From the NCBI GenBank assembly GCA_028692655.1, contig JAQUWY010000018.1, positions 1-34,339 on the forward strand: 34,339 nt of DNA, given 5' to 3'. Positions 1,659 through 29,732 of this stretch are shown in pieces. The stretch comes from Candidatus Omnitrophota bacterium. GTDB lineage: Bacteria; Omnitrophota; Gorgyraeia; Duberdicusellales; 4484-171. The position numbers and the translations under genes are program-made. The notes under the pieces are model-generated. The model did not search any database. It was given only the letters and a program-made list of their open reading frames with translations, and was not told the origin of the DNA. Each line of letters begins with the position of its first letter. Position 1 is the first letter of the stretch.

Positions 1659-1678
1659 TAGTCCACATTCTATAGAAT

Positions 1679-2045
1679 ATACAGGTTGAGGCTTAAAAAA
1701 AGTCCACGGTCCACGGTCGATAGTCCATAGACGACAGGCTATATAGGTTGAGGTTGAGGTTGAGGTTAAGGTTAAGGTTGAACCATTGTTGCAAACCCGC
1801 ATTGCAACGAGGTTGAGAAAAACTAAAAAACCAAAAGACCAAAAAACAGAAAACTAAAGAACTAAAAATAAAAAGACTGAAAAACTGAAAGACCAAAAAA
1901 CCAAAAAACACAAAAGCTAAAGAAATTAAAACCTTGCCTACCGGCAGGCAGGCGCTAACCAAAAACCGAACACCGCAAACCGATAATTTGATTCAAAACT
2001 TGAGACTTGCAACCTGAGACCTGAAACTTGTAACCTGCGACTCGA
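1679..2045 (+). repeat. Composite word repeat, copy 1 (subfamily I)
   Basis: This fills the 415-bp gap between dnaJ and the zinc-ribbon gene. The modules are, in order: (A) a lead acaggttgaggcttaaaaaa and period-7 words gtccacg/gtcgata/gtccata; (B) six hexamers ggttga/ggttaa; an extra insert with two ttgcaa palindromes (about 1780-1811); (C) about 100 bp of period-8 words of type RAAARACY (aaaaaacc, aaaagacc, gaaaaact); (D) the GC-rich near-palindrome cttgcctaccggcaggcagg; (E) accgaacaccgcaaaccgat; (F) period-7 words gagactt/gcaacct/gagacct/gaaactt. Modules C-F match copy 3 almost base for base. ORFs called across it are artefacts of the low-complexity sequence. Confidence 0.9.
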
Positions 2046-4665: not shown

Positions 4666-5769
4666 ATGGCACAAGTAGCTTTAAAGAATATTAATAAACT
4701 TTACAACGGCAATATATCCGCGGTTAAGGATGTTAACCTTAACATTGAGGACAAAGAGTTTGTTGTTTTGGTAGGCCCCTCGGGCTGTGGAAAATCAACT
4801 ACTTTAAGAATGGTAGCCGGTTTGGAAGATCCTACAAGCGGCGGCATCTATATAGGTGATAAAAAAGTCAATAATGTTCCGGCTAAAGATAGAAATATTG
4901 CTATGGTGTTCCAGAATTACGCTCTTTATCCGCATATGAATGCTTACAGCAATATGGCCTTTGCTTTAAAACTGCGTAATTACTCAAAAGCTGATATTGA
5001 TTCCAGAGTAAAAGAAGCCGCACAAATTTTAGGAATAGGCCATCTTATGGACAGGAGGCCTAAGGAGATTTCCGGAGGTGAACGCCAGAGAGTGGCTGTG
5101 GGTAGGGCGATTGTGCGAAAGCCGGAGGTATTTCTTTTTGATGAACCACTAAGCAATCTTGACGCTAAGATGCGCGTGCAGATGCGCACGGAAATCCATA
5201 AGCTTCATTTAAAAATACAAACAACCATGATTTATGTTACGCATGACCAGACTGAAGCTATGACGCTTGGAAACCGTATAGCGGTCATGAAAGGCGGCGA
5301 AGTCCTGCAATTTGACACACCTCTAAATGTTTATGACAATCCGGTGAATAGGTTTGTGGCCGGGTTTATCGGTTCCCCTCCCATGAATCTTATAAAAGGG
5401 AAAATAATAAAAGACGATGGCAGCTTGCATTTCGATGAAGGTAATTTTAAAGTCAGAATACTTAAACAAATGAATGACAAACTCAGTAAGTATATAGACA
5501 AAGAAGTAATTTTCGGCGTAAGGCCGGAAAACATATATGATAAGTTATTTGCTTCCAATGCTACTCCGGATAACACTTTAACGGTTCTATGCGAAGTAAT
5601 CGAAACGATGGGTTCTGAAAACTACCTTTACTTTTCTACAGGAAGTAACACCATGATAGCGGTTGTTGAAGCCGCGAATAAGCCCGCTGTGGGTGGCATG
5701 GTTGAGGTTGTTTTTGACATGAAGAAGGTTCATTTTTTTGATCCTTCAGAAGAATTTACCATTGTGTAA
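4666..5769 (+). CDS. ABC transporter ATPase, MalK/UgpC/MsmX type
   Basis: This is the cytoplasmic ATPase of a carbohydrate-type (CUT1) ABC importer. Seen in order are Walker A GPSGCGKST (about residue 38), the Q-loop (FQNYALYPHM), signature SGGERQRVA (Glu in place of the more usual Gln), Walker B VFLFDEPLSNLDA, and the H-loop THDQTEAM. A C-terminal OB/TOBE regulatory domain (about 235-367) with VRPENI is present. Length (367 aa) fits the family. No permease or binding-protein gene lies nearby, so it may be a shared ATPase serving several distant transporters, as MsmX does in Bacillus (inference). It has its own strong promoter. The last 32 bp overlap the next gene. Confidence 0.92.
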   Translation: MAQVALKNINKLYNGNISAVKDVNLNIEDKEFVVLVGPSGCGKSTTLRMVAGLEDPTSGGIYIGDKKVNNVPAKDRNIAMVFQNYALYPHMNAYSNMAFALKLRNYSKADIDSRVKEAAQILGIGHLMDRRPKEISGGERQRVAVGRAIVRKPEVFLFDEPLSNLDAKMRVQMRTEIHKLHLKIQTTMIYVTHDQTEAMTLGNRIAVMKGGEVLQFDTPLNVYDNPVNRFVAGFIGSPPMNLIKGKIIKDDGSLHFDEGNFKVRILKQMNDKLSKYIDKEVIFGVRPENIYDKLFASNATPDNTLTVLCEVIETMGSENYLYFSTGSNTMIAVVEAANKPAVGGMVEVVFDMKKVHFFDPSEEFTIV

Positions 5770-7009
5770 TTTTCTTGCCTGCATAATTTTAGCGTTACTT
5801 TTTATCGACTCTCTTGTTCTGGCTTTTTCCAAAATGCCCGCGGTTGGTTTATTCTTCCTAACCGCATCTGCAACGGCCTTTCTGATTTTTCGTAAACTTA
5901 AAAAACATATTTTCTCGGGATATCACGGAGATATCGATTCAATAGAAGGAAAAATCAACCTTGCAGCGGAGAATATAACCGAGAAAGAAAAAATCCTCCA
6001 GAGCCTTTCGCCCAAACATGAGAAAATCTCTTTTTTATTTGAAGTTTCCAAGAAATTTATTGAGTTATCTGAACCGGAAGAAATCTATGATTTTCTTTTG
6101 TCTACCTTAGACAAGCTATTTCCCCAGGCAGACAATATCCTTGTTTTTGATTTTGAAAAAGGCCAGGATAACCTAAGCTTAGTTCGTTCGCTGAAAAGAA
6201 AATTTGCGGTTATAAAAGAAAAAAAAGGCGGAATAATAGACAGCTGGATTTTACGGCACAACAGTTCATTGTTGATAGATGATTTAATAAAAGATTTCAG
6301 GTTTGATTCTTACAGGGTGGAGGCTTATACGCAAAGAGGATGCCAGTCTTTCGTAGGCAGTCCATTTTCGATTGCCGAAAAACCTTTAGGCATCGTAAGA
6401 ATGGAATCGGTTAATCCCGGAGTATTCAGCTTTGATGATTCACGCCTCTTGCGCAATATCTGTGAACTGGCGGCTGTTGTGCTTGAAAGGGGAAGGCTTT
6501 TTGAAAAAGCCAGGGAATTGGCAATCAGGGATTCTTTGACTGGCCTTTATTTGAAAGACTATTTTTTTGACCGCCTCAACCATGAGTTTAAGCGTATGAA
6601 TGAAGGCACTTCCTGTGGAGTAATAATGGCTGATATTGACGATTTTAAAAAAATCAACGATACTTACGGGCATGTTGTCGGCGATAAAGTTATTATTGCT
6701 ATTTCTAAGATACTGGCCGCATTAACTAAGATTCCGGGTATGATTTGCGGCCGTTTTGGAGGAGAAGAATTTGTAGTTTTGTATCCTGGCTGCGGCTTAC
6801 AATCTCTCGTTGGTCTTGCTGAACGAATTCGCCAGGAAGTAAATAAAACAGATTTAAGTTTCCGTAGGAATACTGTTCATTTTACGGTATCGCTGGGGCT
6901 GGCTCTATACCCTGATACCGGCAAAGACGCCTTGAGCTTGGTTAAGGCGGCAGATGAGAGGCTTTACAAAGCAAAAAAAGAAGGCAAAGATAGAATATGT
7001 TTTTCTTAA
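5738..7009 (+). CDS. Membrane-bound GAF-GGDEF diguanylate cyclase
   Basis: It is predicted to make cyclic di-GMP from two GTP. The N-terminus has two hydrophobic segments (about residues 10-30 and 34-50). A short coiled linker and a GAF-like sensor domain (about 90-245) follow, then a GGDEF domain (about 260-423). The metal and substrate motif is MADIDDFKKINDTYGH, and the active-site loop is GRFGGEEF, a functional variant. The inhibitory RxxD site five residues before GGEEF is absent (KIPG in its place), so product inhibition is probably lost. The start is uncertain: TTG at 5738 follows AGAAGG by 9 nt and overlaps the ABC gene; TTG 5762 is an alternative. It overlaps the next GGDEF gene by 13 bp, so the two are probably co-translated. 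Confidence 0.88.
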   Translation: MILQKNLPLCNFLACIILALLFIDSLVLAFSKMPAVGLFFLTASATAFLIFRKLKKHIFSGYHGDIDSIEGKINLAAENITEKEKILQSLSPKHEKISFLFEVSKKFIELSEPEEIYDFLLSTLDKLFPQADNILVFDFEKGQDNLSLVRSLKRKFAVIKEKKGGIIDSWILRHNSSLLIDDLIKDFRFDSYRVEAYTQRGCQSFVGSPFSIAEKPLGIVRMESVNPGVFSFDDSRLLRNICELAAVVLERGRLFEKARELAIRDSLTGLYLKDYFFDRLNHEFKRMNEGTSCGVIMADIDDFKKINDTYGHVVGDKVIIAISKILAALTKIPGMICGRFGGEEFVVLYPGCGLQSLVGLAERIRQEVNKTDLSFRRNTVHFTVSLGLALYPDTGKDALSLVKAADERLYKAKKEGKDRICFS

Positions 7010-7965
7010 TAGCTGGATTTATATTGTTTGCCGGGTTTCTGTTCAACGAGTTTTTTCTCCTTAAAAGATTCCGCCGGAAAGAAGCAAACAGGGAACACTC
7101 GTTAGCGGAGGATGTCCGGATTTTAGAGAAAAGAGGCGAGGATATAAACAACGAAGTTAAGAAGTGGGAAAATATCTTGTCAGAACGCTTTTCGTTTTAC
7201 GATATCACAAGAAAGATAACACCATATCTTGATAAAGAAGAGCTGGCCCGGGCGTTTATAGGGGAGATGAAATATCTAAACGGGGTTGAAAGCGTGGAGT
7301 TTTACGGCTCTTCCCGAAGAAAGGGCTGGCTTACTTTTAAACTCAAATCCTTTGAGCAAGATTATATATGTATTAAAACCACTTCCCATGAGGTCATAGA
7401 ATGCCTGCCTTATTTTATAAAGTTATTTATTCTCTGCCTTGAAAGAATAGACCTGTACCGAAAGCTTCAGGAGCTATCCATACATGATTCATTAACGGGG
7501 ATTTACAACCGTAGGTATTTTATGCAGCGGTTTGCCGAAGAGTTCCAACGGGCAAAACAATTTAATCTTAATCTGGCTTTTCTTATGATTGATATAGATA
7601 ACTTTAAAAAAATCAACGATACTTATGGGCATTTAGTGGGGGATGTTGTTTTAAGAGAAGTAGCAGTTGTTATAAAAGAAAGTACCCGCGAAATAGATTT
7701 TCTTGCCAGGTTTGGCGGAGAAGAATTCTCGGCAGTTTTGTTAGAAACAGGTAAGGATGAAGCGGTTGGGGCGGGTAAGCGTATAAATGAGAGGGTGATT
7801 CAGAAAAAGATTCACGCTTTTGATGAAATTTTAAGTGTGAGTGTAAGCATAGGCGTAGCATGCTTTCCTCAAAATGCTTTATACCCCGATGTTCTTCTGG
7901 AAGTAGCTGATAAAGCGATGTATCAGGCTAAACTTTCCGGCCGTAACCGCGTTTGTTTCTTCTAA
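6997..7965 (+). CDS. Membrane-anchored GGDEF diguanylate cyclase
   Basis: A second probable c-di-GMP synthase. It has one N-terminal membrane helix (about residues 2-22), a charged coiled segment, a degenerate sensor region (about 60-150), and a GGDEF domain (about 160-322). The domain carries MIDIDNFKKINDTYGH and ARFGGEEF. Unlike the upstream paralogue it keeps an RxxD inhibitory site (REID) at the right distance. The start ATG overlaps the end of the upstream gene by 13 bp. The two GGDEF domains are clearly related (same FKKINDTYGH and GGEEF loops), which suggests tandem duplication followed by divergence of the sensor parts. The gene ends just before repeat copy 2. Confidence 0.9.
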   Translation: MFFLIAGFILFAGFLFNEFFLLKRFRRKEANREHSLAEDVRILEKRGEDINNEVKKWENILSERFSFYDITRKITPYLDKEELARAFIGEMKYLNGVESVEFYGSSRRKGWLTFKLKSFEQDYICIKTTSHEVIECLPYFIKLFILCLERIDLYRKLQELSIHDSLTGIYNRRYFMQRFAEEFQRAKQFNLNLAFLMIDIDNFKKINDTYGHLVGDVVLREVAVVIKESTREIDFLARFGGEEFSAVLLETGKDEAVGAGKRINERVIQKKIHAFDEILSVSVSIGVACFPQNALYPDVLLEVADKAMYQAKLSGRNRVCFF

Positions 7966-7976
7966 ATCCAATTCAT

Positions 7977-8278
7977 CAACCATTGTTGCAAACCCGCATT
8001 GCAACGAGGTTTTGCAACGAGGTTATAGGCTGTACAGGTTGAGGCTTAAAAAAAGTCCACGGTCCACGGTCGATAGTCTATAGACCATAGACGATGCAGA
8101 TTGAGGCAAAGGCAAAGGCTAAGGTTGAGGTTAAGGTTAAGGTTGAGGTTGAGGTTGAGGAAAACCGAAGAACCAAAGAACTGAAATACTGAAAGACTAA
8201 AAAACGAAAAGACTTTAAAGCCTTGCCTACCGGCATGCAGGTGCTAAGCGAAAACCGAACACCGCAAACCGAACTGTA
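7977..8278 (+). repeat. Composite word repeat, copy 2 (subfamily II)
   Basis: This fills the gap between the GGDEF pair and pgi. It begins with the ttgcaa-palindrome insert (ccattgttgcaaacccgc), which in copy 1 sits after the hexamers, so this module has moved. Then come acaggttgaggcttaaaaaaa, the gtccacg words, gatgcagattgaggcaaagg, six ggttga/ggttaa hexamers, period-8 A-rich words, the palindrome cttgcctaccggcatgcagg, and accgaacaccgcaaaccga. The A-rich module is a different sequence from copies 1, 3 and 5 but almost identical to inverted copy 4, defining a second subfamily. Confidence 0.9.
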
Positions 8279-8355: not shown

Positions 8356-9792
8356 ATGGACAAGAACTTAGAAAAATATTTTTTAGAAGTTTGTGGAGTC
8401 GGCAAAGATGAATTGCCTCAGGACAATCCTTACCGGCAGATAGGCTTTGACGGTGAAAAGAACCGTTTGGGCTGGGTTAAGACGGCGGCTTTTGCCCAGA
8501 TAAAGAAAGCCCTGGAAGAAGTTCTGCCATCGCTTGAAGGTAAAGATAAATTTATTTTTATAGGCATGGGCGGCTCTATTAATGGAATAAAGCCGCTGCT
8601 ATTTCTTTCCGATAAGAAATTCTGTTATACTTTGGATAATCTTGATCCTGAGGCGATAAAGGATTTATTGTCGTCTTTGGGGGGTTTGGACAGGACGTTA
8701 GTGGTTGCGATTTCGAAGTCCGGAACAACAAAGGAAACTCAACTGCTTGCTTCGGCCATGAGGGAGGTATTTCTTAAGCTGCCGGGAGGAGAGGATTGGA
8801 AAAAAAACTTCATATGGCTGAGTGACCCCGAAGCTTTCGGCAAATTAGATGAGCTCGGCTGGCAGGGAGTAAAAAAAGTAGCTATACAGTTTAACGAAAA
8901 GAGCGATATCGGAGGCAGATTTTCTAGCCCCAATACGCTTATCTTTTTCTTGCCATTATTTCTGATATTGCAAAAAAGTTTCCGTGAACTTGAGGGTATA
9001 TATAATTCTTTTTTATCTTCACAAGAGGCCATACGTTCTAAAGCTTTTCGTTTGGCCGAGGAATATAAAGATAAAGCCCGGGCATATTTTTCACCTATGA
9101 CCGGGGAAAAGATGGGAGCTTCGTTTTCTTCCTGGATAGTCCAGCTTTTTCAGGAGTCGCTGGGGTCAAAGCTTGAAGGCCTGGAAGTTAAAACTCTTCC
9201 CAATACGAAAGATAAAGATTGTTTCTTCCCGGTGGAATTGGGGATGGATTTCGATTGTCCCATAGTCGAGATTATGAGCCAGATGTATTTTTTTCAGGTT
9301 TTTGTAGCTTATTATTCTGCCTTCAAAAAAATAAATTTTGTTAATCAGGAATTTGTTGAAAAATATAAGTTTCAAATGAGGAAGCTTCAAGAACAGGAAC
9401 AACATACCAATTTAGAAGTTTTAAAGCTTGAAGATATAGTAAAATCAATCCGCGAAAAGATTAAGCCCAGCCAGAAATTTATAGAAGTGGTCCTTTATTT
9501 CTACCCTGAGGCCGGAGTGATAGAGGATATACGTAAAAGAATAGAAAATGTTTTTAAGGATAAAAAAATTCTTGTTTTTATCGGCAGTGATTGGAATCAT
9601 CAGTCTTATCAGGCGGCTTTTGGGAGCAAAGACACTTTCTATCTTTTACTTCTACTCCCGGAATATAAGCTGGATTTTTCTTTTTTACCGCCGGAAATTC
9701 TCAAGCATAATGTTGAAACTCTTAAAGTCATAGGCGAGGCAACATATCTTACCCTCAGAGATAAGTCCCTTCTTCTGGGATATTCTAATTAG
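8356..9792 (+). CDS. pgi: Glucose-6-phosphate isomerase (divergent, SIS domains)
   Basis: It interconverts glucose-6-phosphate and fructose-6-phosphate in glycolysis. Two SIS sugar-isomerase domains are visible. The first has FIFIGMGGSINGIKPLL (about residue 70) and the phosphate-binding loop SKSGTTKET (about 120). The conserved KSDIGGRFSS follows near 185. The second half (about 290-478) contains FPVELGMDFDCPIVEIM and FVNQEFVEKYK, similar to the isomerase part of transaldolase/Pgi fusions. Length (478 aa) is within the family range. RBS and start are clear. Divergence from the E. coli type means the second catalytic half is assigned with less certainty. It is followed by pta and ackA, consistent with a sugar-to-acetate route. 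Confidence 0.85.
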   Translation: MDKNLEKYFLEVCGVGKDELPQDNPYRQIGFDGEKNRLGWVKTAAFAQIKKALEEVLPSLEGKDKFIFIGMGGSINGIKPLLFLSDKKFCYTLDNLDPEAIKDLLSSLGGLDRTLVVAISKSGTTKETQLLASAMREVFLKLPGGEDWKKNFIWLSDPEAFGKLDELGWQGVKKVAIQFNEKSDIGGRFSSPNTLIFFLPLFLILQKSFRELEGIYNSFLSSQEAIRSKAFRLAEEYKDKARAYFSPMTGEKMGASFSSWIVQLFQESLGSKLEGLEVKTLPNTKDKDCFFPVELGMDFDCPIVEIMSQMYFFQVFVAYYSAFKKINFVNQEFVEKYKFQMRKLQEQEQHTNLEVLKLEDIVKSIREKIKPSQKFIEVVLYFYPEAGVIEDIRKRIENVFKDKKILVFIGSDWNHQSYQAAFGSKDTFYLLLLLPEYKLDFSFLPPEILKHNVETLKVIGEATYLTLRDKSLLLGYSN

Positions 9793-15059: not shown

Positions 15060-15447
15060 GCCCCACTGCAGTTTAATCCGATATATAAGAATGAATAAAC
15101 TTACCGGCAGCCGCAATAATAAAGTCATTATTGTTTTTGACGGTTCATATAATCTTGCGGCTTTCCAGGAGAGAGGGGATTATGAATTATTTTTTAGCCA
15201 GAACTTAAGTGCTGATGAGCTTATTCACAAGAAGCTGAAATCTTTATTAAATAAGAGCCAAGTCGTTGTGGTGAGCGACGATAGAGAGATAAGGGACTTT
15301 ACTAAGCGTGAAGGAGCCAGGAGTCTAAGAATTAATGAGTTTATAAAAATAAAACAGCCGGATGTATCAGAGGCAAAAGATATTGACTATTCTCTCCAGA
15401 GAGAAATTACCGAAGAAATGAGAAAGATATGGTTGAAGGATAAGTAG
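14992..15447 (+). CDS. YacP-like NYN-domain nuclease
   Basis: A PIN-like NYN-domain protein (YacP/DUF901 group), probably an RNase. The N-terminus MLVYIIDGFNLVHRV carries the first catalytic Asp and the conserved Asn of the domain. IIVFDGSYN and VVVSDDREIRDF supply the other acidic residues (about residues 45 and 100). At 151 aa it is near the family length of about 170. The start is fixed by a perfect AGGAGG 8 nt upstream, inside the 3' part of the preceding gene. In Bacillus, YacP (Rae1) cuts mRNA on ribosomes; whether this protein does so is unknown. Repeat copy 3 starts right after the stop codon. Confidence 0.82.
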   Translation: MLVYIIDGFNLVHRVKNLKNSVEPHCSLIRYIRMNKLTGSRNNKVIIVFDGSYNLAAFQERGDYELFFSQNLSADELIHKKLKSLLNKSQVVVVSDDREIRDFTKREGARSLRINEFIKIKQPDVSEAKDIDYSLQREITEEMRKIWLKDK

Positions 15448-15752
15448 TCGATAGTCTACAGTCCATAGGCTATACAGGCTGAGGCTCGAGAAAGTCCATA
15501 GACGACAGGCTATATAGGTTGAGGTTAAGGTTGAGGTTGAGGTTAAGAAAAACTAAAAAACCAAAAGACAAAAAAACAGAAAACTAAAGAACTAAAAACA
15601 GAAAGACTGAAAAACTGAAAAACCAAAAAACACAAAAGCTAAAGAAGTTAAAACCTTGCCTACCGGCAGGCAGGCGCTAACCAAAAACCGAACACCGCAA
15701 ACCGATAATTTGATTCAAAACTTGAGACTTGAGACCTGAAACTTGGAGCTTA
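15448..15752 (+). repeat. Composite word repeat, copy 3 (subfamily I)
   Basis: It begins at the stop codon of the NYN gene. It has a duplicated lead of gtcgata/gtctaca/gtccata words, five ggttga/ggttaa hexamers, the period-8 A-rich module, the palindrome cttgcctaccggcaggcagg, accgaacaccgcaaaccgat and the gagactt/gagacct words. From the A-rich module to aacttgagact it is almost the same sequence as copy 1 but lacks the ttgcaa insert. The end is followed within 31 bp by the promoter of the TPR gene. Confidence 0.9.
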
Positions 15753-15782
15753 CGGCTTATTCTAAGAGGTTCGCAACTGAGT

Positions 15783-18315: not shown

Positions 18316-18571
18316 ACAACCGTTGCATTAAACATTATACTCTCAATTTAGAAGTATTAAAAGAAAAGAGTGGATAAAAATATTAAATAGAAACAGTTTT
18401 AAGCCCTAAGCCATAAGCTTTTTAAAGAGTGTAAAATTGTAGAGATGTGTTTACATATTTTGTGTAAAGGCGAACGGTATACGGTTGCGTAACTCGTATC
18501 GTTATTCGTTTGCCGGCTGCGTTAATAAAATCTTATGAATAGAGACGGTTGACGTTTAACGACAGCCGTTT

Positions 18572-18815
18572 CAAGCTACCTGCCGGTAGGCAAGGCTTTA
18601 AAGTCTTTTCGTTTTTTAGTCTTTCAGTATTTCAGTTCTTTGGTTCTTCGGTTTTCCTCAACCTCAACCTTAACCTTAACCTTAACCTTAACCTTAGCCT
18701 CTGCCTTTGCCTCAATCTGCATCGTCTATGGACTATGGACTATCGACCGTGGACCGTGGACTTTTTTTAAGCCTTAACCTGTATAATCTATCGCCTGTGG
18801 ACTGTGGTTTGCGAC
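18572..18815 (-). repeat. Composite word repeat, copy 4 (subfamily II, inverted)
   Basis: Read on the minus strand it has the order of the other copies: the lead aggcttaaaaaaagtccacgg, the gtccacg/gtcgata/gtccata words, gatgcagattgaggcaaagg, six hexamers (four ggttaa, two ggttga), the period-8 A-rich module and the palindrome cttgcctaccggcaggtagc. The A-rich module is nearly identical to copy 2. It lies between two minus-strand genes, so it too follows the direction of local transcription. The plus-strand ORF called here (18549-18770) is an artefact. Confidence 0.9.
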
Positions 18816-19199: not shown

Positions 19200-20102
19200 A
19201 TGCTGGCAAAACGCATAATACCCTGTTTAGATATAAATAACGGCCGGGTGGTAAAAGGGGTTAATTTTATTAACCTTAGAGATGCCGGTGACCCCGTAGA
19301 TAACGCTAAAGTTTACGAACAAGAAGGAGCTGATGAACTTGTTTTTTTGGATATTACCGCCAGCCACGAGAAGCGTTCGACCACGATTGATTTAGTAAAC
19401 AGGGTGGCTGAGGTTGTGTTTATGCCTTTTGCAGTGGGCGGTGGAGTTCGAAATGTTGGCGATATCAAAAGGCTTCTCTTGGGCGGAGCAGAAAAGGTTT
19501 CTTTAAATACCGCGGCAGTCAATAATCCTTGGATAGTAAAGGAAGTATCGAGTATCTTTGGCAGTCAATGTATAGTTGTGGCAATAGACGCAAAATTAAG
19601 ATATAGTCCTGAGCAGAGCCTAAGGGCAATAGACGCAAAGTCAAAATACAAGACGAAAGGCGTAGGACGTAGGACGAAGGACGTAGGACGAAGGACGAGT
19701 GGTGTTGGATGTAGAAAAAACGTCTCGCATCTCACATCTCACGTCTCACGGAACGAGTGGGAGGTCTATATCAATGGCGGAAGAATTCCAACAGGAATGG
19801 ATGTAGTTAAATGGGCCAAGAAAGTGGAAAAGCTGGGTGCAGGAGAAATACTCCTTACCAGCATGGATTATGATGGGACCAAGAAAGGCTTTGATATAGA
19901 ATTGACAAGAATCGTGGCAGATGCCGTTAATATCCCGGTTATAGCTTCCGGAGGAGCCGGTAAGCTGTCTGATTTTTATGAAGTCTTTACTAAGACTAAG
20001 GCTACAGCGGCTCTGGCAGCATCTATATTCCATTACCGGGAAATAGGCATTAAAGAAGTCAAAAAATACCTTAAGAAGAAAGGAGTGGAAGTGCGGATAT
20101 AA
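19200..20102 (+). CDS. hisF: Imidazole glycerol phosphate synthase HisF, with repeat-derived insertion
   Basis: The cyclase subunit of the HisHF complex, which makes imidazole glycerol phosphate and AICAR in histidine synthesis. Conserved parts are intact: [13 protein letters not shown] (catalytic Asp at about 11), GGGVR, the strand ending AIDAK (catalytic Asp at about 130), [18 protein letters not shown] (second catalytic region) and IASGGAG. The protein is 300 aa instead of about 250. The surplus of roughly 45-50 residues lies directly after AIDAK and before [10 protein letters not shown], and is encoded by period-7 word arrays and a 15-bp duplication. The frame is preserved and both flanks are well conserved, so the gene is probably functional with a surface loop. 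hisI follows 60 bp downstream. Confidence 0.93.
19580..19755 (+). repeat. Word-array insertion inside hisF
   Basis: A 15-bp direct repeat ggcaatagacgcaaa (19580-19594 and 19625-19639) is offset by 45 bp, so it repeats the residues AIDAK in frame. It is followed by period-7 words acgtagg/acgaagg (about 19655-19703). Then come period-7 words of another type, gtctcgc/atctcac/atctcac/gtctcac (about 19720-19750). The style is that of the intergenic arrays, here inside a core gene. Confidence 0.85.
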
Positions 20103-22772: not shown

Positions 22773-24928
22773 TCAAAAATACAGATTTGAAGCTCAGGGT
22801 TGGAGTAATCCTCACACTGGTGGTTCTAAGTATTTTGTACGTGTTCCCTTTGAAAAAAAACGTAAATCTTGGCTTAGATTTAAAAGGCGGAATGTATGTC
22901 CTGCTTAGAGCCGATACGTCTTCGGTGCCTGCTAAAAGAAAGTCAGATGCTATAAGTGCTGCGGTTGAAAAAATACGCAGCCGTATAGATGCCTACGGGG
23001 TCAAGGAAACGTCAATCCAGGTTCAGGGAGAAAATTCCATTCTTGTCCAGGTGCCGGGCCTTGTGGATAGAGAAATAATAGACCGCTTGAAAGAAGTGGG
23101 AAAACTTGAGTTTCAGCTGGTAGAAGAAGACAAAGAAAAAATTTCCTTGGCTTTGAAGGGAGAAGTGCCCGAAGGCTGTGAGTTAAAGGAATATGAAAAC
23201 TCTCAATTGCTTATACGAAAGAGCCCTTCTCTTGTTGGAAGTGACCTGGCTGATAGTTTTGTAGGCTTTGATTCTTATGGTATTGCCGAAGTCCGCCTGA
23301 AATTTACTTCTGCCGGGGCAAGAAAATTCGCTAAGGTAACTGAAGATAACGTAGGTAAGCGACTGGCAATTGTTTTAGACGGCAGTGTCAAGAGCGCTCC
23401 TCAGATAAGAGAGCCTATAGCAAGCGGAGAAGCCCAGATTACCGGAGATTTTTCTCTGGATGAAGCAAGGCTTATAAGCTCGGTATTAAATTCAGGAGCT
23501 CTTCCCATACCTTTAGTGGTGGAAGAAGAACGGAGTGTCGGCCCGCTCTTGGGCTCAGACTCGATTCAGAGAGGAATACGTTCTATATTTTTGGGAGCCG
23601 TCCTTGTCATTATTTTTGTACTTATCTATTATCTTTTAGGCGGTGTGATTACTGTCATCTGTCTTTTTCTCGATCTTTTGTTTATCCTTGCCGGCTTGCA
23701 TCTTTTTAAAGGTACGCTGACGCTTCCCGGCATCGCCGGTATGATTTTGACTTTGGGCATGGCGGTAGATGCCAATATTTTGATATTCGAAAGAATAAGG
23801 GAAGAGCTTAAGGAAAATAAACCTTTCAGCATCGCCGTAAAGAATGGTTTTAACCGGGCTAAAAGAACAATATTTGATGCAAATGTTACAACCCTGATAG
23901 CCGCTTTCTTTCTTTTTTATTATGGCACGGGGCCCATAAAAGGATTCGCTGCTACTTTATCTTTGGGTATCATAGCCAGTATTTTTACTGCTGTATTTGT
24001 AGGCAGGACAATTTTTTCTTTTTTAATAAATTTAAAACTGAAAAAATTTACAATGCTTTCTGTTATATCGTCTTCCAAGATAAACTTTGTTAAGGCCAGA
24101 TGGTTTTGCATTGTTGCTTCTTTAATCATAATCGGCGTGGGAATGTTTAGCTTTTACTCTAAAAGGGATGATATCTACGGAATAGATTTTAAGGGGGGGC
24201 AAATCCTTGAATATAAGATTACTCCCGCGGTTAACATTGAAGAAGTAAGGGCAACTCTTAAGGCGAAGGGCTTTGATAGCCTCATCATCCAGGAGTTTAA
24301 GGATATTACCGGAGGCATAATCATAAAAAGTAAAGATGACATTTCATCAGAGCTCCAGAAAACTTTAGAAGAGAGTTTCCAAAATGTAGAGGAGCTTAAA
24401 ATCACTACGGTAGGCCCGGCTGTAGGCAAAGTCTTGAGGAGTAAGGCTTATATGGCCATAGCACTTTCCCTTTTAGGTATACTTCTATATGTTGCTGTGA
24501 GATTTAAGCATTTTGACTTTGCCTTTGCGGCTGTGATAGCGCTTTTCCACGATGTTTTTATCTGTCTTGGGTTTGTGGCCTTGGCCGGGTTTGAGGTGAA
24601 TCTTTTGACTGTAACGGCGTTGTTGACGATAGCCGGATACTCCATAAATGATACTATCGTTATCTACGACCGGATTAGAGAGATATCTCCGCATATGCGC
24701 AAGGCACCATTAAAAGACATAGTTAATAAAGCCATTAACAGCACGCTTTCCCGGACGATTATTACTTCTTTTACCACAATTCTTGTAATAGCTTCTATTT
24801 TTATTCTAGGAGGCGAAACTCTTAGAGGATTTTCTTTCACTTTGCTGGTAGGGGTAATTTTTGGCACCTATTCTTCGATATATATCGCTTCTCCTTTGGT
24901 TCTTTTGTTTAGAAAGACCCGTGTTTAA
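22769..24928 (+). CDS. secDF: Protein export membrane protein SecDF (fused)
   Basis: SecD and SecF use the proton gradient to pull exported proteins across the membrane after SecA. Both are here in one 719-aa chain. The SecD part (about residues 1-420) has an N-terminal helix, NLGLDLKGGMYVLL, a reduced periplasmic domain, and five further helices with GMAVDANILIFERIREE. The SecF part (about 430-719) begins with a helix, GIDFKGGQILEY, and later TIAGYSINDTIVIYDRIRE. Both halves carry the conserved Asp-containing helix-4 motif. The fusion is seen in several phyla. It overlaps yajC by 4 bp and the mfd gene by 8 bp. Confidence 0.96.
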   Translation: MIKNTDLKLRVGVILTLVVLSILYVFPLKKNVNLGLDLKGGMYVLLRADTSSVPAKRKSDAISAAVEKIRSRIDAYGVKETSIQVQGENSILVQVPGLVDREIIDRLKEVGKLEFQLVEEDKEKISLALKGEVPEGCELKEYENSQLLIRKSPSLVGSDLADSFVGFDSYGIAEVRLKFTSAGARKFAKVTEDNVGKRLAIVLDGSVKSAPQIREPIASGEAQITGDFSLDEARLISSVLNSGALPIPLVVEEERSVGPLLGSDSIQRGIRSIFLGAVLVIIFVLIYYLLGGVITVICLFLDLLFILAGLHLFKGTLTLPGIAGMILTLGMAVDANILIFERIREELKENKPFSIAVKNGFNRAKRTIFDANVTTLIAAFFLFYYGTGPIKGFAATLSLGIIASIFTAVFVGRTIFSFLINLKLKKFTMLSVISSSKINFVKARWFCIVASLIIIGVGMFSFYSKRDDIYGIDFKGGQILEYKITPAVNIEEVRATLKAKGFDSLIIQEFKDITGGIIIKSKDDISSELQKTLEESFQNVEELKITTVGPAVGKVLRSKAYMAIALSLLGILLYVAVRFKHFDFAFAAVIALFHDVFICLGFVALAGFEVNLLTVTALLTIAGYSINDTIVIYDRIREISPHMRKAPLKDIVNKAINSTLSRTIITSFTTILVIASIFILGGETLRGFSFTLLVGVIFGTYSSIYIASPLVLLFRKTRV

Positions 24929-26860: not shown

Positions 26861-27751
26861 ATGAAAACGAAGATTTTTCTTATTTTGTTTATCGCTTTAC
26901 AATTAGGGGCCAGCGCTGAGGAGATAACCCGTATAGTTGCCAAAGTAAATAATCAGGTAATAACTTCTAGGGACCTGGATGACTATTGTAAGGCTTTAAA
27001 TTATGATATTTCCGACAGCCGCCAAAAGATTTCCTTGCAGGGCCAGGAATTTAATAAAGAAGCGCTGAAACGTTTAATTGAAGATAAGTTGGTTCTTGGT
27101 GAGGCTATCAGAGAAAAAATACAGATTCCGCAGCCAATGATTGACAATAGGCTTGATCAGATAATATCTTCTTATCCTTCACGCCAGGATTTTGAGGCTT
27201 CACTCTTAGAAAAAGGGTTTACTGTTACTTCCTTAAAGAAAAAAATCGAGAGCCAATATATGATGCGGGAAGTTATCGATAAATATGTCAAATCAATGGT
27301 TAGCGTTTCTCCTCAGGAAATATTTTCTTATTATTCTCAGAATAAAGATTCATTTCAGTCTCCTGAGATTTACATTTTTTATATAGCTAAATCTCAGGAG
27401 AAAAGTATTCTGGAAGATATTTCTAAGCTGATCGAGGCGGAAGGTATTATCGGAGCCCAAAACGCTTACTGGGGCCTGCTTATGAAAATGGAATCTACAA
27501 AAGAAGAGCTAAAGGCTGATATAGCCGAGGTACTGGAAAAATTAAAGAGCGGTTCTTGGAGTATAAAGCAAGGGGAAGACCTGTATTACTTGATATACCT
27601 CGATAAGATAATGCCAAGCCGCCTTTTATCTTTCGAGGAAGTGCAAAGGCAGGTCTATTCTTATTTATGGGAAGAAAATTTCCAGAAAAGGTTTAAACAG
27701 TGGATAGGCGAACTAAAAGATAAAGCTGTAATCGAAAACTACTATGAGTAG
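26861..27751 (+). CDS. SurA-like periplasmic chaperone
   Basis: A probable periplasmic folding factor for outer membrane proteins. It has a signal peptide (MKTKIFLILFIALQLGASA, cleavage near residue 19). The SurA N-terminal domain follows (RIVAKVNNQVITSRDLDDY, then KEALKRLIEDKLVLGEA), with a helical MREVIDKYVKSMVSVSPQEI linker. The parvulin isomerase domain expected at about residues 165-260 is poorly recognisable, so enzyme activity is doubtful. The track start (26810) overlaps mfd; ATG 26861 directly opens the signal peptide and has AGGTG upstream. It overlaps pdxA by 8 bp. The surA-pdxA-rsmA order is the same as in Proteobacteria, supporting the call. Confidence 0.8.
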   Translation: MKTKIFLILFIALQLGASAEEITRIVAKVNNQVITSRDLDDYCKALNYDISDSRQKISLQGQEFNKEALKRLIEDKLVLGEAIREKIQIPQPMIDNRLDQIISSYPSRQDFEASLLEKGFTVTSLKKKIESQYMMREVIDKYVKSMVSVSPQEIFSYYSQNKDSFQSPEIYIFYIAKSQEKSILEDISKLIEAEGIIGAQNAYWGLLMKMESTKEELKADIAEVLEKLKSGSWSIKQGEDLYYLIYLDKIMPSRLLSFEEVQRQVYSYLWEENFQKRFKQWIGELKDKAVIENYYE

Positions 27752-28667
27752 AAAGCGCCTGGTAATTTCTTCCGGAGACCCTGCAGGCTGCGGCCCAGTT
27801 ATTACTGCTGGGGCTATACAGGATTTAAGGGTGCCGGGAGTAGATTTAATTGTTGTCGGAGATAAAAAAGTTTTTTTATCCTTGCCTTCTTGTAAGAAAT
27901 TTTTCAAAAAAGTTACCTTTGTAGATGTGGGGACCGCACAGATAGGTGTGCTCAAAAAAGGCGAAGCTTCCAGGCTTTCCGGCCAAGCCGCATTGAACTA
28001 TATAAATAGGTCCCTGGATATTATCTCAGGTAAAAGGGCTGCCTTGGTAACTGCACCGGTTTCTAAAGAAGCCATCTGCCTTGTCCATAAAGATTTTAGC
28101 GGCCACACTGAATATTTAAGCAATTTTTTCAAATCTAAGAATGTGGCGATGATGATGGTTTCCCCTTCTTTTAAAACAGTCCTTTTTAGCCGACACATAC
28201 CTTTATCTAAAGTTTCCGGGCAGATAAAGGAAGAAGCTTTGTTAAGGGCTTTTAAACTCATTTATCAGGAGTTAAAAAATAAATTCAATCTGCCTAATCC
28301 GTGTGTTGCTTGTGCTTCTTTAAACCCTCATGCTGGTATGAATACCTTTCTGGGAAGAGAGGAAAAAATAATTTTAGAAGCAATAAAGAAATGTCCATAC
28401 CCTATGCAGGGCCCGCTTTCTGCCGATACCATTTTCGTTAAGGAAAGTCTTAAAAAATATGATTGCGTTATTAGCCTTTACCACGATCAGGGAATGATAC
28501 CGTTTAAATTGCTGGCTATGAAAAAAGGGGTTAACTTAACATTGGGTTTGCCAATAATAAGGACTTCACCGGCGCATGGTGTTGCTTATGACGTTATCCG
28601 TCAGGGTAAGGCTCCTTTTTACTCTTCGATGCTTGAGGCAATGAAATTAGCCATCAGGCTGCTGTAA
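27744..28667 (+). CDS. pdxA: 4-hydroxythreonine-4-phosphate dehydrogenase
   Basis: It oxidises 4-phosphohydroxy-threonine in the DXP-dependent pathway to pyridoxal phosphate. Typical motifs are SSGDPAGCGPVI at the N-terminus, APVSKEAI, the metal-binding His in FSGHTEYLSNFF (about residue 120), SLNPHAGMNTFLGREE, GPLSADTIF, LYHDQGMIPFKLL with the second metal His, and TSPAHGVAYDV with the third. The third motif reads AHG where AHD or DHG is often seen. 307 aa is a little shorter than the E. coli enzyme. The ATG lies 8 bp inside the SurA-like gene. Repeat copy 5 starts within 10 bp of its stop. Confidence 0.95.
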   Translation: MSRKRLVISSGDPAGCGPVITAGAIQDLRVPGVDLIVVGDKKVFLSLPSCKKFFKKVTFVDVGTAQIGVLKKGEASRLSGQAALNYINRSLDIISGKRAALVTAPVSKEAICLVHKDFSGHTEYLSNFFKSKNVAMMMVSPSFKTVLFSRHIPLSKVSGQIKEEALLRAFKLIYQELKNKFNLPNPCVACASLNPHAGMNTFLGREEKIILEAIKKCPYPMQGPLSADTIFVKESLKKYDCVISLYHDQGMIPFKLLAMKKGVNLTLGLPIIRTSPAHGVAYDVIRQGKAPFYSSMLEAMKLAIRLL

Positions 28668-28672
28668 TTAAT

Positions 28673-28930
28673 AATACAGGTAGAGGCTTAATAAAGTCCA
28701 CAGTCCATAGTCCATAGACGATAGACTATATAGGTTGAGGTTGAGGTTAAGGTTAAGGTTGAGGTTAAGAAAAACTAAAAAACCAAAAGACAAAAAACAG
28801 AAAACTAAAGAACTAAAAACAGAAAGACTGAAAAACTGAAAGACCAAAAGACCGAAGAACATAAAAACTAAAGAAGTAAAAACGCTAACTGAGAACCGAA
28901 TATCGCAAGCCGATAGCTTGGCCTGTGACA
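28673..28930 (+). repeat. Composite word repeat, copy 5 (subfamily I, shortened)
   Basis: It lies exactly between pdxA and rsmA. Modules: acaggtagaggcttaataaa, period-7 words gtccaca/gtccata/gtccata/gacgata, six ggttga/ggttaa hexamers, and a period-8 A-rich block close to copies 1 and 3. It continues with cgctaactgagaaccgaatatcgcaagccgata. The GC-rich palindrome cttgcctaccggcagg is missing, as if deleted together with neighbouring bases. The last bases run into the start region of rsmA. Confidence 0.9.
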
Positions 28931-28949: not shown

Positions 28950-29732
28950 ATGATTAAACAGAAGCATTCCCTGGGCCAGGTATTCTTAAAAGACAAAAAG
29001 TATATAGAAAGAATAGTTTCGGCTTTAGACGTTAAAGGCAAAAACGTTCTCGAGATAGGCCCGGGAGAAGGCGTTTTAAGTTCCCGTATCGTTTCTAAGG
29101 CGAATAAACTTTACTGTGTAGAAATTGACCCGGATTTATGCCGCTTATTAAGGGATAAATTTAAAGTTATACAATCGGTAAAGATTATCTGTTCAGATAT
29201 ATTAAATTTTCCGATACAGAAGTTAAACAAAAAAGTAGTAGTCTTGGGTAATGTGCCATATTATATAAGCAGCAGCCTAATTGATTATTTAATTTGCAAC
29301 CGGCGTTATATTTATTCGGCACATCTTACTCTGCAGAAAGAATTTGCCCGTAAATTAACCGCTGTTCCCGCGACAAAACCGTATTGTGCTTTAAGCTGCT
29401 ATGCCCAGTATTACTCGGACATTAATAGGTACTTTGATATTCCGGCAGGGGCATTTAAGCCCACGCCTAAGGTGGATTCTACTTTTATTTCTTTGGAATT
29501 TTACCGGAAGCCTCGCTATGGCTGTAAAAATGAAGTTTTTCTTTTTAAAGTTATTGATTCAGCTTTTTCCCAACCAAGAAAAAAAATAGTGAATCTAATG
29601 CCGGGAGTAAAAAATAAATGCGATTTCTTTTCTCGCCTCAACGTTGATCCTAATGCCAGGCCGCAGGAATTGTCTCTTGTTGACTATATTAAAATAACTC
29701 AAAAATTAAGTGCGAATAAATATTTTTTATAA
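28950..29732 (+). CDS. rsmA: 16S rRNA dimethyladenosine transferase RsmA (KsgA)
   Basis: It dimethylates two adjacent adenines near the 3' end of 16S rRNA during small-subunit assembly, using S-adenosylmethionine. Motifs: HSLGQVFLKDKKYIERIV at the N-terminus, the SAM site VLEIGPGEGVLS (about residue 33), VEIDPDL, and the catalytic GNVPYYISS (about 100; NIPYYIS in E. coli). A C-terminal helical domain with SQPRKKIVNLM follows. 260 aa is normal. No Shine-Dalgarno sequence is visible before the ATG. Position after surA-pdxA is conserved with Proteobacteria, though the composite repeat separates it from pdxA. Confidence 0.95.
   Translation: MIKQKHSLGQVFLKDKKYIERIVSALDVKGKNVLEIGPGEGVLSSRIVSKANKLYCVEIDPDLCRLLRDKFKVIQSVKIICSDILNFPIQKLNKKVVVLGNVPYYISSSLIDYLICNRRYIYSAHLTLQKEFARKLTAVPATKPYCALSCYAQYYSDINRYFDIPAGAFKPTPKVDSTFISLEFYRKPRYGCKNEVFLFKVIDSAFSQPRKKIVNLMPGVKNKCDFFSRLNVDPNARPQELSLVDYIKITQKLSANKYFL

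Follow-up and report, generated by a model that had tools for sequence, protein, structure and literature searches.

The small dispersed repeats (SDRs) of cyanobacteria are attributed to Elhai et al. (2008). Very small mobile repeats of cyanobacteria are cited in PMC4390886, and PMC2884548 is a further source on SDRs. Like the palindrome that we call D, the cyanobacterial SDRs are dispersed, mobile-looking units of ~20 bp with precise entry, and they are accompanied by tandem heptamers. They differ from it in phylum and in sequence, D being a perfect palindrome with a phylum-wide distribution, and D is in addition the joint where larger mosaics are exchanged. Tandem repeats of heptamers are known as the STRRs of cyanobacteria, as GGGAATC in Xanthomonas (PMC4692102) and as TAACTGA in Beggiatoaceae (PMC4679880). 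These are, as in the composites considered here, intergenic arrays of degenerate 7-mers, those of Xanthomonas lying close behind the upstream gene. In the present case, however, an array similar to that of Beggiatoaceae is one block among others, and several heptamer words are strung together with 6- and 8-mers and with palindromes into copied composites.

The other pieces have counterparts as well. Bacterial MITEs (reviewed in PMC10969869) resemble the repeat that we call K, which has a length of ~240 bp, terminal inverted repeats, target duplications and many copies, but K is distinguished by recombinant halves fused to an unrelated repeat. REP/REPIN palindromes (PMC3733652, PMC3116915) are, like D and the hairpin J, intergenic palindromes of 20-40 bp in many copies; D and J differ from them in having no GTAG/CGTC tag and no cognate transposase among the three Y1 genes examined. 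The mobile hairpins of mitochondria, such as the GC clusters of yeast (PMC4478555) and the RHEs of sponges (PMC2800124), are also very short, mobile-looking and drive rearrangement, but they belong to organelle genomes and have no sequence in common with the present pieces, so that the likeness is an analogy only. Judged against the open literature searched, in which no description of the D sequence was found, two things are new: such parts are combined into composites that undergo exchange, and the joint between them is a 20-bp palindrome found across the phylum.

The window, by which we mean the whole stretch of 34,339 nucleotides analysed, is the entire contig C45 of a 1.65-Mb metagenome-assembled genome (MAG) of 62 contigs. 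Its phosphotransacetylase is 86% identical to that of an Omnitrophota MAG and 79% to that of Candidatus Susulua stagnicola, and an Rfam scan of the window gave a tRNA as the sole match. The window contains five copies that are members of a genome-wide mosaic family in this uncultured Omnitrophota bacterium. A 279-nt piece of copy 2 used as query found 66 matching stretches in the own genome, and in 58 relatives there were no more than short fragments. The lag-7 autocorrelation has z = 5.2-7.8 in all five copies, compared with about -1 in coding DNA, and D has 36+35 matches, compared with 0 for its reversed control. Together with the 66 stretches, these values show that the family is not due to chance.

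We propose that the copies are patchworks between genes, composed of small selfish or passive pieces of DNA and of slippage arrays, which are copied and recombined at D, with no single ancestral unit and no host function needed; we put the probability of this reading at roughly 0.78. The degenerate 7-, 6- and 8-mer arrays would probably grow by replication slippage. Tiny palindromic inserts (D of 20-21 bp, J of 34 bp, and H, a TTCGA...TCGAA piece of ~50 bp) would enter with sharp edges, J and D presumably moving as micro-insertions, and the ~240-bp MITE K, with its terminal inverted repeats and 7-8-bp target duplications, is a third kind of piece. Ectopic recombination or gene conversion would then copy the mosaic blocks among dozens of loci. 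D would be the preferred joint, offering either shared homology or a hairpin or cruciform at which the DNA breaks.

Anatomy of the five copies

The modules usually follow in the order heptamers (AGTCCAT/AGACGAT), hexamers (AGGTTR), A-rich block, palindrome D, CGCTAACCRAAAACCGAA and right-hand block. The A-rich block has an octamer rhythm, and the right-hand block is of one of two types, E1 (CACCGCAAACCGATAA, followed by heptamers of the GAGACTT type) or E2 (AGAACATTTCTTTAGTAGAAATACGG). D is a perfect palindrome of 20 bp, CCTGCCTRCCGGYAGGCAGG. This mosaic anatomy is seen directly in the following features of the window.

1659..2045, plus strand: copy 1, between dnaJ (558-1658) and an fmdB-like gene (2074-2376); modules are heptamers, hexamers, hairpin J, A-rich type a, GC palindrome, E1 and GAGACTT heptamers
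1781..1814, plus strand: hairpin J (AACCATTGTTGCAAACCCGCATTGCAACGAGGTT) in copy 1, after the hexamers
1932..1952, plus strand: GC palindrome D of copy 1, 21 bp
7977..8278, plus strand: copy 2, between a GGDEF gene (6997-7965) and a PGI-like gene (8356-9792)
7978..8011, plus strand: hairpin J at the front of copy 2, same letters as the hairpin of copy 1
7999-8024: 13-bp tandem duplication of TTGCAACGAGGTT after J in copy 2
8049..8099, plus strand: heptamer block of copy 2, GTCCACG/GTCGATA/GTCTATA/GACCATA/GACGATG, best lag 7, z = 7.3
8104..8160, plus strand: hexamer array of copy 2, AGGTTR/AGGCAA
8161..8220, plus strand: A-rich block type b (octamer-like) with tail t3, common to copies 2 and 4
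8221..8241, plus strand: GC palindrome D of copy 2, with a mutation in one arm
15447..15757, plus strand: copy 3, from the stop codon of an NYN/YacP gene to a TPR gene
15654..15674, plus strand: GC palindrome D of copy 3
18596..18803, minus strand: composite left part of copy 4, 95.7% identical to copy 2 up to the palindrome
18575..18595, no strand: GC palindrome D linking copy 4 with repeat K
18430..18575, plus strand: left half of the MITE-like K, fused to copy 4 at the palindrome
28668..28915, plus strand: copy 5, between pdxA (27744-28667) and ksgA (28950-29732)
28882..28883, no strand: junction of copy 5 without the palindrome (empty site), an exact 21-bp difference from copy 3

The initial annotation had divided the copies into two subfamilies, and within the window the A-rich block bears this out. 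Copies 2 and 4 have one A-rich module and a further block in common (95.7% over 211 bp, including gatgcagattgaggcaaagg and the A-rich AAAACCGAAGAACCAAAGAACTGAAATACTGAAAGAC), and copies 1, 3 and 5 have another, with left-block identities of 81-90%. Genome-wide the division does not hold, at least four types of A-rich block and two right-hand types being present in ~240 kb of own-genome sequence, which consists of targeted stretches around family matches and related matches and was annotated module by module. Copy 4 (18576-18803, minus strand) is no plain copy, since past the palindrome it runs into the different repeat K.

The ttgcaa segment was described at the outset as sitting after the hexamers in copy 1, at the front in copy 2 and in none of the other three copies of the window, as is indeed the case. 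Copy 5 was said to have lost the GC palindrome by deletion. The absence is exact, copy 3 reading AAGTTAAAA[CCTTGCCTACCGGCAGGCAGG]CGCTAAC and copy 5 reading AAGTAAAAA-CGCTAAC with precisely 21 bp less, but the site may equally well never have been filled.

Exchange of blocks between loci

The block to the left of the palindrome was compared with the block to its right, locus by locus. Between C55:9110 and C6:66253, identity is 98% for the left block and 11% for the right block, which is unrelated; between C13:1792 and C55:19840, the values are 94% and 11%, respectively. Conversely, C6:66253, C46:32472 and C55:19840 have right blocks that are 100% identical and left blocks that are only 62-87% identical. 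Two loci with identical left blocks (100 nt, trimmed to the A-rich part) carry different, unrelated right blocks, and the left tails t2 and t4 occur with the right blocks E1 and E2 in all four combinations. These comparisons show directly that blocks of the mosaics have been swapped between loci, usually at palindrome D.

One could also imagine that a single ancestral composite was copied, and that point mutations and independent losses of parts account for every difference between the copies, without exchange. The largely constant order of the modules (heptamers, hexamers, A-rich block, palindrome, E) is in line with such a history. Identical left blocks with unrelated right blocks are at odds with it, as are chimeras with repeat K at the palindrome, and the presence of all four left/right combinations refutes it unless the loci are misassembled. 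In the maximum-likelihood tree of the left block, the type of the right block requires three changes, at least two of which are forced by well-supported branches, and 0% of the bootstrap trees need only one change. An AU test, in which E1 was held to one clade of the left-block tree, gave no significant result (p = 0.19), since it leaves free the identical rows on which the question turns. It is therefore the pair with identical left blocks and the branch-supported changes, and not the AU test, that lead us to reject the single tree, and we regard such an origin as scarcely credible. The left-block tree took in C38_5900, which is probably no real copy; the conclusion is unaffected. The module shuffling proposed in the initial annotation, which was to be abandoned if all copies fell on one simple tree, is thus supported by the block comparisons.

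Chimeras whose halves meet at D also speak for exchange by recombination there, the reading we prefer. In the chimera of copy 4 with the left half of K, the K part is 89% identical to the K copy of contig C37 over 211 columns. At C15:49960 the left half of K is joined at D to a composite other than that of copy 4, and at C46:7922 the left side is composite (90.6%) and the right side is K (96.6%). Since D is palindromic, joints in either orientation are possible, and both are observed. The location of the breakpoints at D could in part reflect that D with CGCTAACC is the best conserved stretch, and any single chimera could be an assembly error in the MAG, but D, with its 20 bp, is shorter than the usual assembly k-mers and three copies of the window lie in syntenic gene pairs. 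By its empty sites and chimeric junctions, the family illustrates clearly how bacterial intergenic DNA can be built from very small parts and re-sorted between loci.

Palindrome D, hairpin J and repeat K

An exact match to D is present in 106 of 285 Omnitrophota genomes, with up to 58 copies, and the reversed control has 0 in all of them. Its presence and absence can be compared directly at matching sites: exactly 20 bp separate K copies that have D from those that lack it (48 vs 28 nt), and for composites the difference is 21 bp (49-50 vs 28-29 nt). In the relative G024, two 5' tRNA gene halves, one of tRNA-Asn and one of tRNA-His, contain D; after removal of exactly 20 bp they match the adjacent intact tRNA (TCCCCGGTAGCTCAATTGGTA|GAGCG and GTGGATGTAGCTCAGTTGGCA|GAGCA). 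The flanks of 30 sampled D copies are unrelated except for a T two bases out on each side (35 of 60, p = 1e-9), so that D favours TN^NA sites. Four of these 30 copies lie inside an open frame that reaches at least 30 codons on both sides. D thus has the properties of an SDR, namely a length of ~20-27 bp, dispersal, and precise presence or absence at matching sites.

D is found without a target duplication, and insertion and precise excision therefore look alike; we infer that the differences reflect movement rather than loss. Tentatively, and with somewhat less than even confidence, we suggest that D is a mobile element of Omnitrophota, exactly 20 bp long and a perfect palindrome, which would insert at TN^NA without target duplication into MITEs, composites and tRNA halves by an undescribed mechanism and would then serve as an exchange point for intergenic blocks. 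With the phylum-wide D exposed, its length, target preference and role as a joint are explicit predictions that make its movement testable.

In G024, on C47 (L177) and C95 (L178), a 5' tRNA half with D in its D-loop is followed by a small GIY-YIG nuclease ORF and the intact tRNA (Asn and His, respectively). The arrangement looks like a nuclease cassette that would have inserted into, and restored, a tRNA gene. Small GIY-YIG genes (85-105 aa) are also found near tRNA genes at G000 C10, G018 C11, G028 C135, G015 C19 and G051 C53. GIY-YIG nucleases were considered as movers of D and rejected, as the palindrome is near just 2-3 of the 20 small GIY-YIG genes checked.

The ttgcaa hairpin J (AACCATTGTTGCAAACCCGCATTGCAACGAGGTT, 34 bp) occurs at three further places in the sampled own-genome sequence. 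This gives five sites in all, on both strands and in different contexts, which agrees with its original description as a mobile module. An exact scan of GTDB r220 genome contigs and IMG/VR found J in none outside the own genome. In copy 1, J folds with z = -3.3 and is bracketed by two AGGTTGA words. These could be a target duplication, but the array and J itself also contain AGGTT.

K is multicopy, with 14 matches to a K query in the own genome. Its terminal inverted repeats, TGTATAATTC...TGTTTACA vs the complement of TGTAAACATAACTTTCGAATAATACA, pair at ~19 of 25 positions by eye; the ends are also given as TGTATAATTC/TGTATTATTC. Target duplications of 7-8 bp flank 7 of 13 K copies, compared with 1 of 156 mispaired flank pairs that reaches 7 bp. 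Because terminal inverted repeats and target duplications are both observed, K appears to be a MITE.

Short intergenic palindromes and four Y1_Tnp genes in the own genome would be expected if the pieces were elements of the REP/REPIN type, mobilised by the genome's own Y1 (RAYT-like) transposases. D and J, however, have no GTAG/CGTC tag of the kind that defines the REP superfamilies (PMC3733652), and the three Y1 genes examined bear different inverted repeats, with D, J and K not adjacent, which makes mobilisation of this type very unlikely. Y1 transposases were rejected as movers on these grounds, and no mover of D, J or K was identified among the Y1 transposase and GIY-YIG genes checked. The Y1 gene L145 (G000 C54, about 22890-24330) has ACCTTACAAAACAGTTTGAAACTGTTTTGTAAGGTTAGGGG palindromes on both sides, and the Y1 genes L144 and L146 (C34) have the flanking inverted repeats GGGGTCAGACCTTGAGATG and GGGACGGAGTTAACTTAATAACTTA.

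Insertion, position and tandem arrays

The intergenic distances at three of the copies were compared with those of relatives. The gap between the GGDEF and PGI genes is 390 bp here vs about 16-143 bp in four relatives of the same gene order. Between the DnaJ and FmdB genes it is 418 bp vs mostly 9-90 bp, and between the PdxA and KsgA genes it is 282 bp, whereas in most relatives these two overlap or stand a few tens of bases apart; at the latter two junctions a few relatives have longer gaps. Since the flanking gene pairs nearly abut in most relatives examined, copies 1, 2 and 5 are insertions, and the comparison shows that composites were added in this lineage and that these three copies are not misjoined contigs. 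At copy 2, the window carries two adjacent genes for GGDEF diguanylate cyclases (5738-7965), the first with a GAF domain, and the order of this pair with the PGI-like and PTA genes is kept in several Omnitrophota.

That the mosaics are mainly artefacts of metagenome assembly or binning, with repeats collapsed and misjoined, is a suspicion raised by the 62 contigs of the MAG and by some repeats near contig ends (C46, C56). We consider it extremely unlikely: the mosaics occur on many contigs with distinct flanks, the gene pairs around copies 1, 2 and 5 keep their synteny in relatives, K copies are bounded on either side by target duplications that match, and D is shared by 106 Omnitrophota genomes.

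The composites lie at a median of 51 nt behind the upstream gene vs 122 nt before the next gene, and the upstream gene is co-directional in 25 of 36 cases. This position, which is similar to that of the heptamer repeats of Xanthomonas (PMC4692102), is what one would expect of a functional 3'-UTR or terminator-like element kept beside stop codons, but the bias may reflect merely the space tolerated in intergenic DNA. The block content, moreover, varies freely between copies, the palindrome has no T-run after it, the element is absent at the same gene pairs in most relatives, and a heptamer array is also found within the coding DNA of hisF. We therefore regard such a function as unlikely and favour mosaics that need no host function.

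The composites contain, as do the heptanucleotide repeats of other bacteria, tandem arrays with a unit of 7 that are mostly intergenic; the element as a whole is not a heptamer array, as palindromes, hexamers, octamers and unique blocks also lie inside the composites. Significantly 7-periodic 42-nt windows make up 4.1% of the noncoding vs 0.18% of the coding DNA in sampled stretches of the own genome. In one set of relatives the lag-7 signal is found in 6.0% of noncoding windows, compared with <=0.3% at other lags and 0.08% in coding DNA. The heptamer words of relatives at the corresponding gene junctions differ, e.g., GAAGATG, GATGCTC and AGTCAAT. The idea that K-like elements left the heptamers behind, as scars of their 7-bp target duplications, is appealing because K makes duplications of 7-8 bp, but it is speculative, is weakened by the 6- and 8-mer blocks, and was not retained.

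The hisF gene (ORF 19200-20102) has an in-frame insertion of ~50 residues (133-185; window positions 19596-19754), and HisF structures are without it. The insertion is made up of the heptamer arrays GACGTAG/GACGAAG and CATCTCA/CGTCTCA and of a piece bounded by the 15-bp direct repeat GGCAATAGACGCAAA, and such arrays are thus able to enter the coding sequence of a metabolic enzyme. A further dispersed short element, CCCTTCGACTACGTTTATCCTGAGTGAAATCGAAGGGCTCAGGGCAAGC, is found at C46:32260, C9:20126, C6:54787, C57:14929 and C15:53642, and four of these five copies break AGTCCA heptamers in register.
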